A stretch of 64,000 nucleotides of DNA, from NCBI GenBank assembly GCA_017525915.1, contig JAFXSC010000022.1, forward strand, positions 186,001 to 250,000, in the 5' to 3' direction. Position numbers and translations under genes: made by a program. Origin of the DNA: Ruminococcus sp. Lineage in GTDB: Bacteria; Bacillota; Clostridia; Oscillospirales; Ruminococcaceae. The stretch's first letter is position 1. Each line of letters starts with the position of its first letter. Under the pieces are notes generated by a model. The model did not search any database. It had not been told where the DNA came from and saw only the letters and a list, made by a program, of their open reading frames with translations. Shown piece by piece: positions 41,087-59,164 of this stretch.

Positions 41087-41638
41087 TCAGCCGAAATATC
41101 TCTTGAGAAGTCCCTCGAAAGCCTTGCCGTGACGGGCTTCATCTCTTGCCATCTCATGAACTGTATCGTGGATAGCATCAAGGTTGAGCTCCTTTGCTCT
41201 CTTGGCGAGCTTGAGCTTGCCCTCGGTAGCGCCGTGCTCCGCGGCAACTCTCTTCTCGAGGTTCTCCTTTGTGGAATCGGAAAGTACCTCGCCGAGAAGC
41301 TCCGCAAACTTTGCAGCGTGCTCAGCCTCCTCGAATGCAGCCTTCTCCCAGTAAGCGCCGATCTCAGGATATCCCTCTCTGTAAGCAACTCTTGCCATTG
41401 CAAGATACATTCCTACCTCGGTGCACTCGCCGCTGAAGTTAGCGCGGAGACCTTCGATTATCTCGGGATCTGTAACAGCCTTTGCAACTCCGAGCTCATG
41501 CTCACAAGCAAATACAAGCTTATCGCCGGCTTCCTTCACAATGAACTTAGAACCGGGAACTCCGCACTGAGGACATTTCTCAGGGGGCTCATTTCCTTCG
41601 TGAACATAGCCGCAGACGGGACATACATACTTTTTCAT
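41087..41638 (-). CDS. Reverse rubrerythrin
   Basis: A 183-residue peroxide-reducing protein of anaerobes. An N-terminal rubredoxin-like iron site ([12 protein letters not shown] and [12 protein letters not shown]) precedes a ferritin-like four-helix diiron domain with glutamates in [46 protein letters not shown] and [14 protein letters not shown]. This N-terminal rubredoxin order is the reverse of classic rubrerythrin. It detoxifies hydrogen peroxide or oxygen using NADH-linked electron donors. It lies 51 bases after the NrdD-tail gene on the same strand, so co-transcription is likely. The family call is very secure. Confidence 0.93.
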
Positions 41639-41689: not shown

Positions 41690-41953
41690 TCATACGCTGT
41701 GCTTAACTCTATCATGCTCCTCGGCGCGTTTGCCGTTATTGAAGCGGTCGAGAGTGCCGACGAGGTAACCGGTTATCCTTCTTATACGGTCAAACGGAAC
41801 ATCGTCGAATTCGTATTTGAGGTCAACGAATTCACCGTCAACAGTGACAGTCATGCTTCTGATATTCCTGTCGCTGTACTTCTTTTTGCCGTAATCGACG
41901 TAGGCATCGATCTCCTCCTGCGGTATCTGCTCACCGATAACATTAACAACCAT
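41690..41953 (-). CDS. Stand-alone NrdD glycyl-radical tail protein
   Basis: An 87-residue protein in two parts. Residues 1-53 (VNVIGEQIPQEEIDAYVDYG, then KKYSDRNIRSMTVTVDGEFV) have no counterpart in the NrdD of this window. Residues 54-87 match the last 34 residues of NrdD (56846-59164) at 33 of 34 positions, including the glycyl-radical motif RRITGYLVG; G62 corresponds to G747 of NrdD. The zinc-binding cysteines of NrdD are absent. AGGAGG before ATG 41953 sets the start. It is co-directional with rubrerythrin and divergent from a Crp/Fnr gene, with a palindrome near -41.5. It could be a replacement radical domain for oxygen-damaged NrdD, like YfiD/GrcA for PFL, or a regulatory binder. That role is inference. 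Confidence 0.8.
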   Translation of the reverse strand: MVVNVIGEQIPQEEIDAYVDYGKKKYSDRNIRSMTVTVDGEFVDLKYEFDDVPFDRIRRITGYLVGTLDRFNNGKRAEEHDRVKHSV

Positions 41954-42007: not shown

Positions 42008-42050
42008 ATTGTATCATAAATATCACGAAAAATCTGTTGCATATGCAACA
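42008..42050 (-). promoter_or_regulatory. Palindrome at -41.5 and -10 box of the NrdD-tail gene
   Basis: TGTTGCATATGCAACA (42035-42050) is a perfect 16-bp palindrome. Read leftward, 21 bases separate it from TACAAT (42008-42013), with no good -35 box. Its centre is then near -41.5, the class II activator position of Crp/Fnr proteins. Its right edge also lies 14 bases before the start of the divergent Crp/Fnr gene, so it could repress that gene. Confidence 0.6.
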
Positions 42051-42064
42051 TGGGAGGAATTTTT

Positions 42065-42733
42065 ATGTTACCGGAAGATAACATCCTGTTCCGAGGCATC
42101 AGCCGCGAGGACTGCGAGCGTATGCTCGGCTGCTTCAATGCAGAGATAAAAAAGTACCGTACAGGAAGCCGCATCGTCGAGCTTTCCGGCAGCCGTGACC
42201 GCATCGGGATCGTTCTCAGCGGTACTGCCGCAGCGGTCAGATATGATATAAACGGTGTCCGGACGATCGTCGAGACTCTCGGAGAACAGAGCATTTTCGG
42301 AGCTTACTTCTCACTTTCATCAAACGCAAGGAGCGTTACCGAGATATATGCCGAAACTGACTGCGAGATAATGTTCGTAAGGCGCTCAGAGATCACAAAG
42401 AGATGTGAGAACGCCTGTCTCTGCCATTCCCGGGTAGTCGAGAACCTTCTTGAGCTCATGACCGAAAAGACAATTGCTCTGAGCGAACGCATCGAGGTGC
42501 TCAGTCAGCGAAGCATCGAGGATAAGCTCATAAGCTGCCTTCAGATCATCGAAAGCAAGACTCCGGAGGGGAAAACTCCGCAGATACCGTTCTCAACTAC
42601 CGCTCTCTCGGACTACCTCTGTGTCAACCGGAGCGCCTTGCAGCGCGAAATGACACGCATGAAGAACAAGGGCATACTCACGATGTCCAAGCGGAAGTTC
42701 CGCCTGAAGCACCACAATGAACAGGATGTCTGA
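42065..42733 (+). CDS. Crp/Fnr-family transcriptional regulator
   Basis: A 222-residue regulator with an N-terminal cyclic-nucleotide-binding-like beta-roll (GIVLSGTAAAVRYDINGVRTIVETLGEQSIFGAYFSLS in outline), a long dimerisation helix, and a C-terminal winged helix (FSTTALSDYLCVNRSALQREMTRMKNKG). Cysteines cluster in MLGCF, TDCEIM and CENACLCH, but this is not the FNR N-terminal four-cysteine pattern, so the ligand is unknown. GGAGG before ATG 42065 sets the start. It diverges from the NrdD-tail/rubrerythrin genes and is the obvious candidate for binding the 16-bp palindrome between them. A role in oxygen, peroxide or nitrosative response is inferred from neighbours. Confidence 0.87.
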   Translation: MLPEDNILFRGISREDCERMLGCFNAEIKKYRTGSRIVELSGSRDRIGIVLSGTAAAVRYDINGVRTIVETLGEQSIFGAYFSLSSNARSVTEIYAETDCEIMFVRRSEITKRCENACLCHSRVVENLLELMTEKTIALSERIEVLSQRSIEDKLISCLQIIESKTPEGKTPQIPFSTTALSDYLCVNRSALQREMTRMKNKGILTMSKRKFRLKHHNEQDV

Positions 42734-56335: not shown

Positions 56336-56836
56336 TCATAATTCAGTTTCTACTGCCCTGCCGGCTGACATACTCGCTTTACAGTCTAAGCAGCGCTGAT
56401 TGCGGCTGCCGCGGAAGTGTATCTCCCAGTCCTTCTGTGCAAGTATGAACGGTCCGTCGATGAGTATATCCGTCACATCGAGCAGAGATTTCCAGCCGTT
56501 GCTTTCGCGGTTCTCCCAAAGCTTTTCAAAGGTATAGCCGGTATATGTTACTATATTCAGCCCGAGCGCCTTTATCTGACTGCCGAGGTATGCAAGAGCC
56601 TCAGCCTGACAGAACGGCTCTCCCCCGCTGAACGTTACGCCGTCAAGCAGCGGATTGCCCTTTATCTTCGCAATGAGCTCGTCCGTATCCACAACAGTTC
56701 CGCCGGTGAAGTCATGTGTCTGCGGATTGTGGCAGCCCTCACAGTTGTGAGGGCAGCCCTGTGTAAATATCGTAAACCTTATTCCCGGTCCGTCAACTAT
56801 CGAATCATTGACGGTGCCGGCGATCCTGATATCCAT
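56336..56836 (-). CDS. nrdG: Anaerobic ribonucleotide reductase activase
   Basis: A 166-residue radical S-adenosylmethionine enzyme that installs the glycyl radical on NrdD. The iron-sulfur motif is CPHNCEGC (C28, C32, C35) within GIRFTIFTQGCPHNCEGCHN, followed by VTFSGGEPFCQAEALAYLG and FHFRGSRNQRC-like IHFRGSRNQRC. The gene lies 9 bases after nrdD and ends at a strong terminator. It could also act on the stand-alone NrdD-tail protein at 41690-41953, as PflA acts on YfiD; that is inference. Very secure. Confidence 0.95.
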   Translation of the reverse strand: MDIRIAGTVNDSIVDGPGIRFTIFTQGCPHNCEGCHNPQTHDFTGGTVVDTDELIAKIKGNPLLDGVTFSGGEPFCQAEALAYLGSQIKALGLNIVTYTGYTFEKLWENRESNGWKSLLDVTDILIDGPFILAQKDWEIHFRGSRNQRCLDCKASMSAGRAVETEL

Positions 56837-56845
56837 TATATCACC

Positions 56846-59164
56846 TTATACGCTGTGCTTTACTCTGTCATGCTCCTCCGAGCGCTTGCCATTGTTGAAG
56901 CGGTCGAGGGTGCCGACGAGGTAGCCTGTGATACGGCGTATCCTGTCGAATGCCACGTTGTTGGAATGTTCCTTTCTTCCGCAGCAGGGGCAGGTCTCGC
57001 CGATGATGCCTGTGTATCCGCAGCAGGGGTCACGGTCAACCGGGTGGTTGATAGCGCCGTAGCCTATGCCTGACTCCTTCATGCAGCGCACGATCTTCTC
57101 GAACGCTGTGAGATTTTCGAGCGGGTCGCCGTCAAGCTCGATATAGCTGATGTGACCTGCGTTCGTAAGCTCGTGGTAAGGAGCTTCGATCTTGATCTTC
57201 TCGAATGCGCTGATCGGATAGTAAACCGGCACATGGAATGAATTGGTGTAGTAATCGCGGTCTGTAACGCCCTCGATCTTGCCGTACTTCTTGGCGTCCA
57301 TACGGACAAAGCGTCCGGAAAGTCCCTCGGCAGGAGTTGCAAGGAGAGAGAAGTTGAGACCGGTGCGGTTGGACTCTTCATCGAGACGCTTTCTCATTGC
57401 CGTAATTATTTCGATACCGAGCTCACGAGCTTCCTCACTCTCGCCGTGGTGAGCGCCGATGAGGGCTTTGAGAGCTTCAGCAAGTCCGATAAATCCGACT
57501 GAAAGCGTTCCGTGCTTGAGCACCTCGCCGATAGTATCGTCGGTCGAGAGCTTGTCCGAATCTATCCATATGCCCTGTCCCATGAGGAATGGGAAGTTCC
57601 TAACGCGCTTCTGGCACTGGATATTGAATCTGTGCATGAGCTGAGCGATAACGAGATCCATCATCTCATCGAGCTTGTCGAAGAAAAGACCTACGTTATG
57701 GTCTGACTTGATAGCAAGTCTCGGAAGGTTGATAGAAGTAAAGCTGAGATTTCCCCTTCCGGTAACGATCTCGCGTGAGGGATCGTGCTTGTTGCCTATA
57801 ACGCGGGTACGGCAGCCCATATACGCGATCTCGGTATCGGGGTTGCCCTCCTTGTAATACTGGAGATTATACGGTGCATCGATGAATGAGAAGTTCGGGA
57901 AGAGTCTCTTTGCCGATACGCGGCAGGCAAGCTTGAACAGGTCGTAGTTCGGATCGGTGGGATTGTAGTTGATACCGTCCTTGATCTTGAAGATATGTAT
58001 CGGGAAGATCGGTGTCTCGCCGTTACCAAGACCGGCTTCCTGAGCGAGGAGAACGTTCTTGATGACCATTCTGCCCTCAGGAGAGGTATCAGTACCGTAG
58101 TTAATCGAGCTGAAAGGCGTCTGTGCGCCTGCACGGCTGTTCATGGTATTGAGGTTATGGATAAGTGCCTCCATAGCCTGATAGGTAGCTCTGTCAGCTT
58201 CCTTCTCAGCATTCCTGCGCGCGAATGCCTGGATCTTCTCAGCCGACTCTTTATCGGTGTAATTCATCAGGAGCTCAAGTTCCTTCTCCTGATAGCCATT
58301 GTCATTGGCAAGCTGGGGCTTGATGCCGTACTTCTCAGCGATCTCGCCACTGATAGCCTTAGCGGTCTCGTCCTCGTTCTCAACACCTGCGATAAGTGCA
58401 AGAGCTCTTGCAACGTTCTGGATATACCTTGAAGCGTAGGTCTTCTTTACGCCCTCCGCCATAGCATAGTCAAAGGTAGGTATGCTCTGACCGCCGTGCT
58501 GATCGTTCTGGTTTGACTGTATAGCGATGCAGGCAAGCGCAGAATAGCTTGATATGTCGTTAGGTTCACGGAGATAACCATGTCCGGTCGAAAATCCGTT
58601 GTGGAAAAGCTTTGTAAGGTCGATCTGACAGCAGGTGGTGGTCAGTGTGTAGAAATCAAGGTCATGAATGTGGATATCGCCCTCACGGTGAGCCTTTGCG
58701 TGTTTCGGCTCAAGGACGTACATCTCATAGTATTCCTTAGCGGATACCGAGCCGTATTTGAGCATGGTACCCATAGCAGTATCGCCGTCGATATTTGCAT
58801 TCTCGCGCTTTATATCGCTGTCCTTGGCGGGGCTGAAGGTAAGCTCGTTGAGGACGCACATAAGGTTAGTCTTCATCTCGCGTGAGCGTGTGCGCTCGTA
58901 GCGGTAGAGGATATAAGCCTTAGCTGTTTTTGCGTGGCCCTTCTCGATAAGGGTCTTTTCAACGAGATCCTGGATCTCCTCAACAGTAGGGGTCTTTCCG
59001 GGATTCTGCTCCTCGTAGAGACGGCATACCTCTACGGCAACGTCCATAGCCGCATTGAAGTCTGTGCCGCCCTTAGCCTGAGCCGCCTTGAAGATAGCGT
59101 TGGCGATTTTTTCTATATTGAAAGGGACTTTACGTCCGTCTCTTTTGATAATGTGAATTATCAT
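56846..59164 (-). CDS. nrdD: Anaerobic ribonucleoside-triphosphate reductase
   Basis: Class III ribonucleotide reductase that makes deoxynucleotides without oxygen, using a glycyl radical. The N-terminal ATP-cone (KRDGRKVPFNIEKIANAIFKAA, residues about 1-95) is the allosteric activity site. The barrel domain has the MNSRAGAQTPFSSINYGT finger-loop region and RGNLSFTSINLPRLA. The C terminus has the zinc site CCGYTGIIGETCPCCGR and the radical loop RRITGYLVG with G747. The 772-residue length is normal. GGAGG precedes the ATG. An NrdR box lies at 59183-59198. It forms an operon with nrdG. Very secure. Confidence 0.97.
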   Translation of the reverse strand: MIIHIIKRDGRKVPFNIEKIANAIFKAAQAKGGTDFNAAMDVAVEVCRLYEEQNPGKTPTVEEIQDLVEKTLIEKGHAKTAKAYILYRYERTRSREMKTNLMCVLNELTFSPAKDSDIKRENANIDGDTAMGTMLKYGSVSAKEYYEMYVLEPKHAKAHREGDIHIHDLDFYTLTTTCCQIDLTKLFHNGFSTGHGYLREPNDISSYSALACIAIQSNQNDQHGGQSIPTFDYAMAEGVKKTYASRYIQNVARALALIAGVENEDETAKAISGEIAEKYGIKPQLANDNGYQEKELELLMNYTDKESAEKIQAFARRNAEKEADRATYQAMEALIHNLNTMNSRAGAQTPFSSINYGTDTSPEGRMVIKNVLLAQEAGLGNGETPIFPIHIFKIKDGINYNPTDPNYDLFKLACRVSAKRLFPNFSFIDAPYNLQYYKEGNPDTEIAYMGCRTRVIGNKHDPSREIVTGRGNLSFTSINLPRLAIKSDHNVGLFFDKLDEMMDLVIAQLMHRFNIQCQKRVRNFPFLMGQGIWIDSDKLSTDDTIGEVLKHGTLSVGFIGLAEALKALIGAHHGESEEARELGIEIITAMRKRLDEESNRTGLNFSLLATPAEGLSGRFVRMDAKKYGKIEGVTDRDYYTNSFHVPVYYPISAFEKIKIEAPYHELTNAGHISYIELDGDPLENLTAFEKIVRCMKESGIGYGAINHPVDRDPCCGYTGIIGETCPCCGRKEHSNNVAFDRIRRITGYLVGTLDRFNNGKRSEEHDRVKHSV

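Follow-up and report, generated by a model that had tools for sequence, protein, structure and literature searches.

Two of the described systems closest to the protein that we analyze here are the following. First, YfiD/GrcA and Y06I of phage T4 are small proteins with a copy of a glycyl-radical domain that restore pyruvate formate-lyase (PFL) after it has been cleaved by oxygen; in the accessible portion of Andorfer et al. 2021, only these PFL spare parts, YfiD and Y06I, are validated, and spare parts for other glycyl-radical enzymes are given as merely possible (PMC8683613). Second, the class II ribonucleotide reductase (RNR) of Pseudomonas aeruginosa, NrdJa/NrdJb, is divided over two genes, as are the class III RNRs that we describe below; unlike them, it belongs to class II and is divided elsewhere, as far as the excerpts available to us go (PMC9669993). 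Within the literature that our searches reached, in which subscription papers were mostly missing, neither a stand-alone radical domain of the class III RNR (NrdD) nor a split NrdD was described. Judging from excerpts, a large phylogeny of RNRs dropped sequences of fewer than 400 residues (PMC9531940), which is one reason why such tail proteins could be missed.

We analyzed a stretch of 64,000 nucleotides from a genome of Ruminococcus sp. (the window), which contains a stand-alone gene for a small protein, P0001, that ends in an NrdD-type tail, as well as genes for NrdD and its activase NrdG. We propose that P0001 is probably a glycyl-radical domain that acts in trans on class III RNR, as judged from gene sequences and gene content across many genomes.

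Features of the window, with positions counted from its first nucleotide
Feature	Position	Strand	Remarks
Small glycyl-radical-domain gene (P0001)	41690..41953	-	stand-alone, 87 aa
P0001 domains			N-terminal beta-alpha-beta-beta, about residues 1-52; NrdD-type tail, residues 54-87; candidate radical glycine Gly62
Rubrerythrin, reverse-type, with N-terminal rubredoxin-like domain	41087..41638	-	directly downstream of the P0001 gene
Candidate extended -10 element of the small gene, TATGATACAAT	42008..42018	-	putative, read by consensus
Perfect palindrome GTTGCATATGCAAC	42036..42049	.	candidate operator of the divergent regulator
Crp/Fnr-family regulator	42050..42733	+	divergent, 227 aa, conserved cysteines including RCxxAC
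NrdG activase	56336..56836	-	adjoins NrdD
NrdD (class III RNR)	56846..59164	-	intact, 772 aa, own tail with Gly747
NrdD key residues			by alignment: radical Cys451 (= P. copri Cys416); zinc-site cysteines 715, 725 and 728

A strong ribosome-binding site (AGGAGGTATTATCATG) precedes the start codon that gives P0001 its 87 residues; starting from an earlier ATG would yield 101 amino acids instead. An earlier note on this DNA had claimed that the tail equals the C terminus of NrdD at 33 of 34 positions and includes the radical glycine, and three kinds of comparison bear this out. By alignment, the last 34 residues of P0001 are identical to residues 739-772 of the local NrdD except for one Ala/Ser difference. 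Pfam's NRDD family matches residues 54-85 with 31.3 bits (cut-off 26.2), and a phmmer search of the PDB aligns about 32 residues of the tail with NrdD from Prevotella copri (8p23, E = 4.7e-8). Gly62, which lies in the context RRITGYLVG, aligns with Gly747 of the local NrdD and with Gly711 of the P. copri enzyme, which is the glycine that carries the radical according to the accessible part of its description (PMC11226230). The same radical loop and tail is what P0001 shares with the P. copri enzyme (the 8p23 series), but the ATP-cone, the barrel, the zinc site, and the catalytic cysteine are all missing from P0001. A class III NrdD combines a barrel with the radical cysteine, a zinc site, and a glycyl-radical loop, and by this combination P0001 is not one. 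The zinc cysteines and the barrel are absent, as claimed: P0001 contains no cysteine at all and matches only positions 533-562 of the 562 positions of NRDD. The synonymous differences that had been noticed between the two copies are real as well. Over the 32 codons that we compared, the DNA is 81% identical, with differences at 4 of the 11 fourfold sites that could be compared, which means that the copying was not a recent event.

In the predicted structure of P0001 (overall pTM 0.47), the N-terminal domain is a strand-helix-strand-strand unit with pLDDT of 80-87 across the block, while the tail scores 56-68; a loop in need of a partner would be expected to score low in this way. Searches with Pfam, PDB sequences, and predicted folds gave no convincing match for the N-domain. 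(The other Pfam match of P0001, to DUF3627, is below threshold. Ribosome hibernation factors gave the best fold matches, but with E values of 0.14 or worse, and we set them aside as relatives.) As far as the accessible text goes, P0001 resembles YfiD/GrcA in being a small and separate copy of the C-terminal radical domain of a glycyl-radical enzyme, with phage versions in both cases (PMC8683613). This comparison, which the earlier note drew, holds for function and not for sequence family: P0001 does not match Gly_radical (PF01228), nor is this among the 25 families listed for 69 members of its family. Also unlike YfiD/GrcA, the presumed target of P0001 is class III RNR rather than PFL, its tail is of the NrdD type, and its N-domain has no recognized relatives. 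Finally, the small protein appears to be an obligate subunit in many of its lineages (see below), and we found no such description for GrcA.

A family scan of genome contigs returned at least 592 matching stretches with at least 570 relatives; NrdD genes are probably among these stretches because one of the search patterns sits in the shared tail. We kept 80 loci, all of which encode a small protein. By their record titles these are mostly clostridial, many being of gut or rumen origin; a few, for example Adlercreutzia, are not clostridial. Ruminococcus flavefaciens FD-1 has both an nrdD (L093) and the small gene (L010). In an alignment of 69 rows, there is no variation at E14, Y18, R59, Y63, L64, V65, K75, E78, and H85, and almost none at the glycine. 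NRDD matches 68 of the 69 rows, the exception being a member without the glycine (L003). A hidden Markov model of the N-domain alone found the family in 49 of 395 genomes from the same order and in 15 of 393 genomes from the class.

The strongest evidence for action in trans comes from nrdD genes that end too early. Among 50 of the genomes of the 80 loci, there are four NrdDs (from G020, G021, G034, and G035) whose alignment reaches no further than residue 745 or 746 and which end before the glycine, with last residues such as ...TERIKRIKMPDCCN or ...SERILRIRR. We then searched the 395 genomes of the same order for NrdD, which gave at least 150 rows, with at most two candidates scored per genome. 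All 35 listed rows whose alignment ended below residue 760 lacked the radical loop when we read the sequence. Nineteen of these genes have a tail gene next to them, 15 have none within the 3.0-3.6 kb that we fetched and read on both strands, and one (G138) runs off its contig. All 15 genomes without an adjacent tail gene carry the two-domain protein (N-domain plus tail) elsewhere, and none of the 19 genomes with an adjacent tail gene does. The adjacent gene, which lies directly downstream of nrdD, encodes a tail only, namely a leader followed typically by VGEGVGFERIRRITGYLVG...

The alignment end turned out to be a poor guide to intactness, as 6 of 20 further rows that we had taken as intact proved to be split. 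Reading downstream at 20 further loci (those 6 and 14 new ones) showed 18 split genes with an adjacent tail gene, and a motif resembling NrdG follows that tail gene in 17 of the 18. None of these 18 genomes is among the 49 with a match to the N-domain. Overall, downstream DNA was readable for 52 split nrdD genes: 15 are of the unlinked-tail type, all in genomes with the two-domain protein, and 37 are of the adjacent-tail type, none with it. (Reading gave a clear answer for 91 of the listed NrdD rows: 54 are split, among them the nrdD of G415, and 37 are intact. The rows were not randomly chosen, so these are not frequencies. A Fisher test of the association, with a value of 6.5e-8, was set aside because it used an earlier classification into intact and split and took no account of phylogeny.)

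Could the short nrdD genes be pseudogenes or assembly errors, with the small protein being an unrelated reuse of the tail? Many of the genomes are metagenome-assembled (MAGs), and five genomes with a split gene of the two-domain type contain one or more further full NrdDs (G021, G163, G342, G381, and G421), which would suit that explanation. But none of the NrdD matches from 38 split genomes contains an internal stop; related split genomes end nrdD at the same point; the catalytic cysteine and the zinc-site cysteines (Cys451 and Cys715/725/728) are kept in all 19 truncated NrdDs of the two-domain type; and the tail genes that we examined have separate ribosome-binding sites (in L118, the site overlaps the end of nrdD). 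The NrdG-like motif downstream of 17 of the 18 extra adjacent tail genes also argues against it, and we consider this explanation extremely improbable. Class II RNRs such as NrdJa/NrdJb have no glycyl radical. The adjacent tail-only arrangement is, by its gene organization, a second form of split class III RNR. We saw the order truncated nrdD, tail-only gene without the N-domain, and often then nrdG in several families of the order (L138-L157 and L377-L396).

In many genomes, the truncated NrdD has no substitute that we could find. We searched the 38 split genomes for other NrdDs (PF13597) and found none in 14 of those with the two-domain protein (G396, G327, G196, G215, G391, G182, G263, G376, G162, G105, G239, G020, G034, and G035). 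The family of class I and class II large subunits (PF02867), which we detected in 11 of 14 control genomes, was found in none of 11 genomes that include G020, G021, G034, and G035, and in a second set it was found in 5 of 34 genomes, none of which is among the 15 of the two-domain type. This leaves 14 genomes in which a truncated NrdD and the small protein are the only RNR found; 11 of these are rated as 99-100% complete, and G020, G034, and G035 have no rating. (The 50 genomes mentioned above also include three with distant NrdDs only (G012, G018, and G039) and two with none besides the small protein (G016 and G050); the titles of all five say that they are MAGs.) The pairing of truncated nrdD with tail genes, as the sole RNR in 14 genomes, implies that the glycyl-radical domain very likely acts in trans, and where nrdD has lost its tail, the small protein is very likely an obligate subunit that bears the radical. 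The claim that a stand-alone tail could replace the tail of NrdD itself thus gains strong support from nrdD genes that end before the glycine and are paired with separate tail genes.

A different reading is that the small protein is a regulator or decoy: as a mimic of the tail, it would occupy NrdG or the barrel of NrdD and lower the activity of the RNR. The loss of the glycine from homologues had been named in the earlier note as a sign against a repair part, and we did find it, in 4 of the 44 members that we read (L003, L178, L181, and L354), all 44 being from the order-level matches to the N-domain model; the other 40 keep the glycine motif. Three of the four form a distinct paralogue that is conserved in the genus of the window (L003:1498-1761, which is G000:C42:12647-12904, and L178 and L181, with the tail ..YRSADYLVNSM..), and such a protein could bind without a radical. 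Nevertheless, the glycine in 40 of 44 members speaks against a decoy, as do the 14 genomes whose sole RNR is truncated and in which we found no glycyl-radical domain other than that of the small protein. We judge the decoy to be improbable for the family, and action in trans remains our preferred reading.

The glycine-less paralogue could be a reused or regulatory member. In all three cases it lies between genes for a FAD-dependent oxidoreductase and an rRNA adenine dimethylase, and in G366 it is the only family member, beside an intact NrdD. The fourth case, L354 (G307:C40:34800-40900), has a degenerate tail (..KMDGSLIGDPLTWNDAKRAEYL..) without a glycyl-radical motif, and the best NrdD match in that genome is distant. 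The paralogue and this member without GYLVG indicate that the fold has other uses.

How did the split arise? In a tree of 93 NrdD rows, truncation of the two-domain type needs 9 changes, of which at least 6 are forced by branches with support of at least 95; the tree was made with a quick method and gave long-branch warnings, including one for the L118 row. The two-domain protein is also present in many sisters with an intact NrdD, suggesting that the tail protein existed before NrdD lost its tail, repeatedly, in some lineages. Its presence in intact sisters is also why a test of independent pairs for truncation versus presence of the protein was uninformative (presence differs in about 1 of 6 pairs). 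At L118, the two-domain gene is found together with a truncated nrdD and with nrdG. In G719, G632, and G524, which belong to one genus, the tail gene lies between nrdG and an intact nrdD that has kept its own tail, and at L348 the stretch from FERIRRITG through VKHF is the same in both tails.

The earlier note also proposed that the tail of the small protein should co-vary with the NrdD tail of its own genome. At the level of lineages it does: across 52 genomes with an intact NrdD and the small protein (one duplicate was dropped), tails from the same genome differ at 3.19 of 32 sites and foreign tails at 4.68, and none of 20,000 permutations gave a difference as low as that of the own tails. 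Genome by genome it does not. When we compared the NrdD of the same genome with the NrdD tails of relatives in 41 genomes, the own match was higher in 19, equal in 9, and lower in 13 (Wilcoxon p = 0.28). As the excess over close relatives is not significant, the tails track the lineage and not the genome. We therefore do not use co-variation as the main proof: it is too weak, since relatives explain the gap between own and foreign tails. (The tail finder for this test required GYL and so cannot be used to count losses of the glycine.)

The window itself has an intact NrdD, so that P0001 would have another role there, and its gene neighborhood offers some hints. At 18 of 121 loci (the window included; the 121 loci are partly close relatives), the small gene has a divergent Crp/Fnr gene beside it, and these regulators are 38-73% identical to the one in the window. 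The palindrome GTTGC-N4-GCAAC occurs upstream of the small gene in all 18 of these loci as compared to just 1 of the 103 others, L070, which has a weaker match to the regulator on the same strand. The center of the palindrome is 24 bp before TATGATA in the window and 23-25 bp before it in all 18 loci, 15 of which read TATGA-TACAAT or TATGA-TATAAT. At class II activator-dependent promoters of the Crp/Fnr type, the operator is centered near -41.5, before the -10 element. If the candidate -10 element is as we read it, then the spacing would place the palindrome near -41, which is the usual position for a class II activator. The conserved RCxxAC cysteines of the regulator might, as a guess, belong to an iron-sulfur or thiol sensor. 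In the 3.09-Mb genome there is a single exact copy of GTTGCANNTGCAAC, and counting matches with one mismatch or none gives no excess over a reversed control. A regulator whose palindrome is found exactly once makes a candidate single-target redox sensor.

A divergent regulator of this type and a conserved palindrome would suit a part that is induced by stress. Of the 18 genomes with the linked regulator, 16 have an intact NrdD; G163 has truncated and full-length NrdDs, and no NrdD was found in G016. However, a divergent regulator is lacking at 103 of the 121 loci, and control by stress is therefore not a general feature. The rubrerythrin gene to which the earlier note drew attention is indeed directly downstream in the window, but only 12 of the 120 other loci have one near the small gene, 10 of them at a distance of no more than about 600 bp.

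Given an intact NrdD, we lean towards P0001 being a spare part in the genome of the window. By analogy with GrcA, it would be an inducible spare for NrdD that has been damaged by oxygen. Another possibility for genomes with an intact NrdD is that the small protein is an alternative subunit, which competes with the enzyme's own tail and gives a form of RNR under different control by the N-domain. In G719, G632, and G524 its gene is flanked by an intact nrdD and by nrdG, so it could be made together with undamaged NrdD. Also, according to the accessible part of the P. copri study, the radical domain of NrdD is mobile and is disordered with dATP (PMC11226230), so it could be displaced without any cleavage. 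On the other hand, an intact NrdD already has its tail in cis, and the regulator (in 18 of 121 loci) and the rubrerythrin neighbor in Ruminococcus-like loci are better suited to stress. An alternative subunit thus seems rather unlikely, and we favor the spare part.

As a spare part, P0001 might work as follows. The divergent Crp/Fnr-type regulator would turn on the P0001 gene, and the spare would bind to NrdD that has been cleaved by oxygen at the glycine. The RRITGYLVG... loop of the small protein would enter the barrel of NrdD in place of the enzyme's own tail; NrdG, whose gene is present in the window and also beside tail genes in several loci, would install the radical on the glycine of the small protein; and this glycine would hand the radical to the catalytic cysteine of NrdD. 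The N-domain may anchor the part on the surface of NrdD or may gate its activation.

On balance, and together with the viral contigs described below, these observations incline us to think that gut Clostridia and their phages have a modular class III RNR, whose radical domain is an induced spare where NrdD is intact, is an obligate subunit where the tail has repeatedly been lost, and is carried by phages, which maybe supply it to the host's reductase. As far as our literature searches reach into the published record, neither a split class III RNR nor a spare part for an RNR is in print. P0001 is a strong spare-part candidate for RNR, which is the essential source of DNA precursors, and the truncated genes are a natural experiment. 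If the proposal is correct, then it would reveal a way in which strict anaerobes may shield DNA synthesis against oxygen; it would provide a two-piece class III RNR whose radical domain could be swapped freely in vitro; and it would point to phages as suppliers of a radical cofactor for the reductase of their host.

In IMG/VR, 413 of 456 matched stretches encode relatives of the small protein (NrdD tails are probably included), and we kept 80 loci with short frames whose match to the family begins at or before residue 10 and runs through to the tail. Six viral contigs have the order truncated nrdD, tail gene, nrdG. Two of the six are near copies (L326 and L328) and one does not include the start of nrdD (L271); in L271 and L307, the distance from nrdD to the tail gene is 0.7-1.3 kb. 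The tail gene is in a different frame from nrdD in L307, L309, L326, and L328, while in L317 it is in the same frame and the genes are apart. Of the 80 viral records, 46 are longer than 20 kb, and searching these with PF13597 gave five truncated NrdDs, one intact NrdD, and one distant NrdD. In the other 39 of the 46, which may be fragments, this search found no NrdD besides the tail protein. Most of the flanking viral proteins that we tested had no informative match. Some of the records are phage or prophage, as a terminase domain is present in 7 of the 46 (above the cut-off in 4) and a virion structural protein family is near the tail gene in L296. Among the 39 viral records with the tail protein and no NrdD (from loci L252-L331), four are on contigs of over 200 kb.
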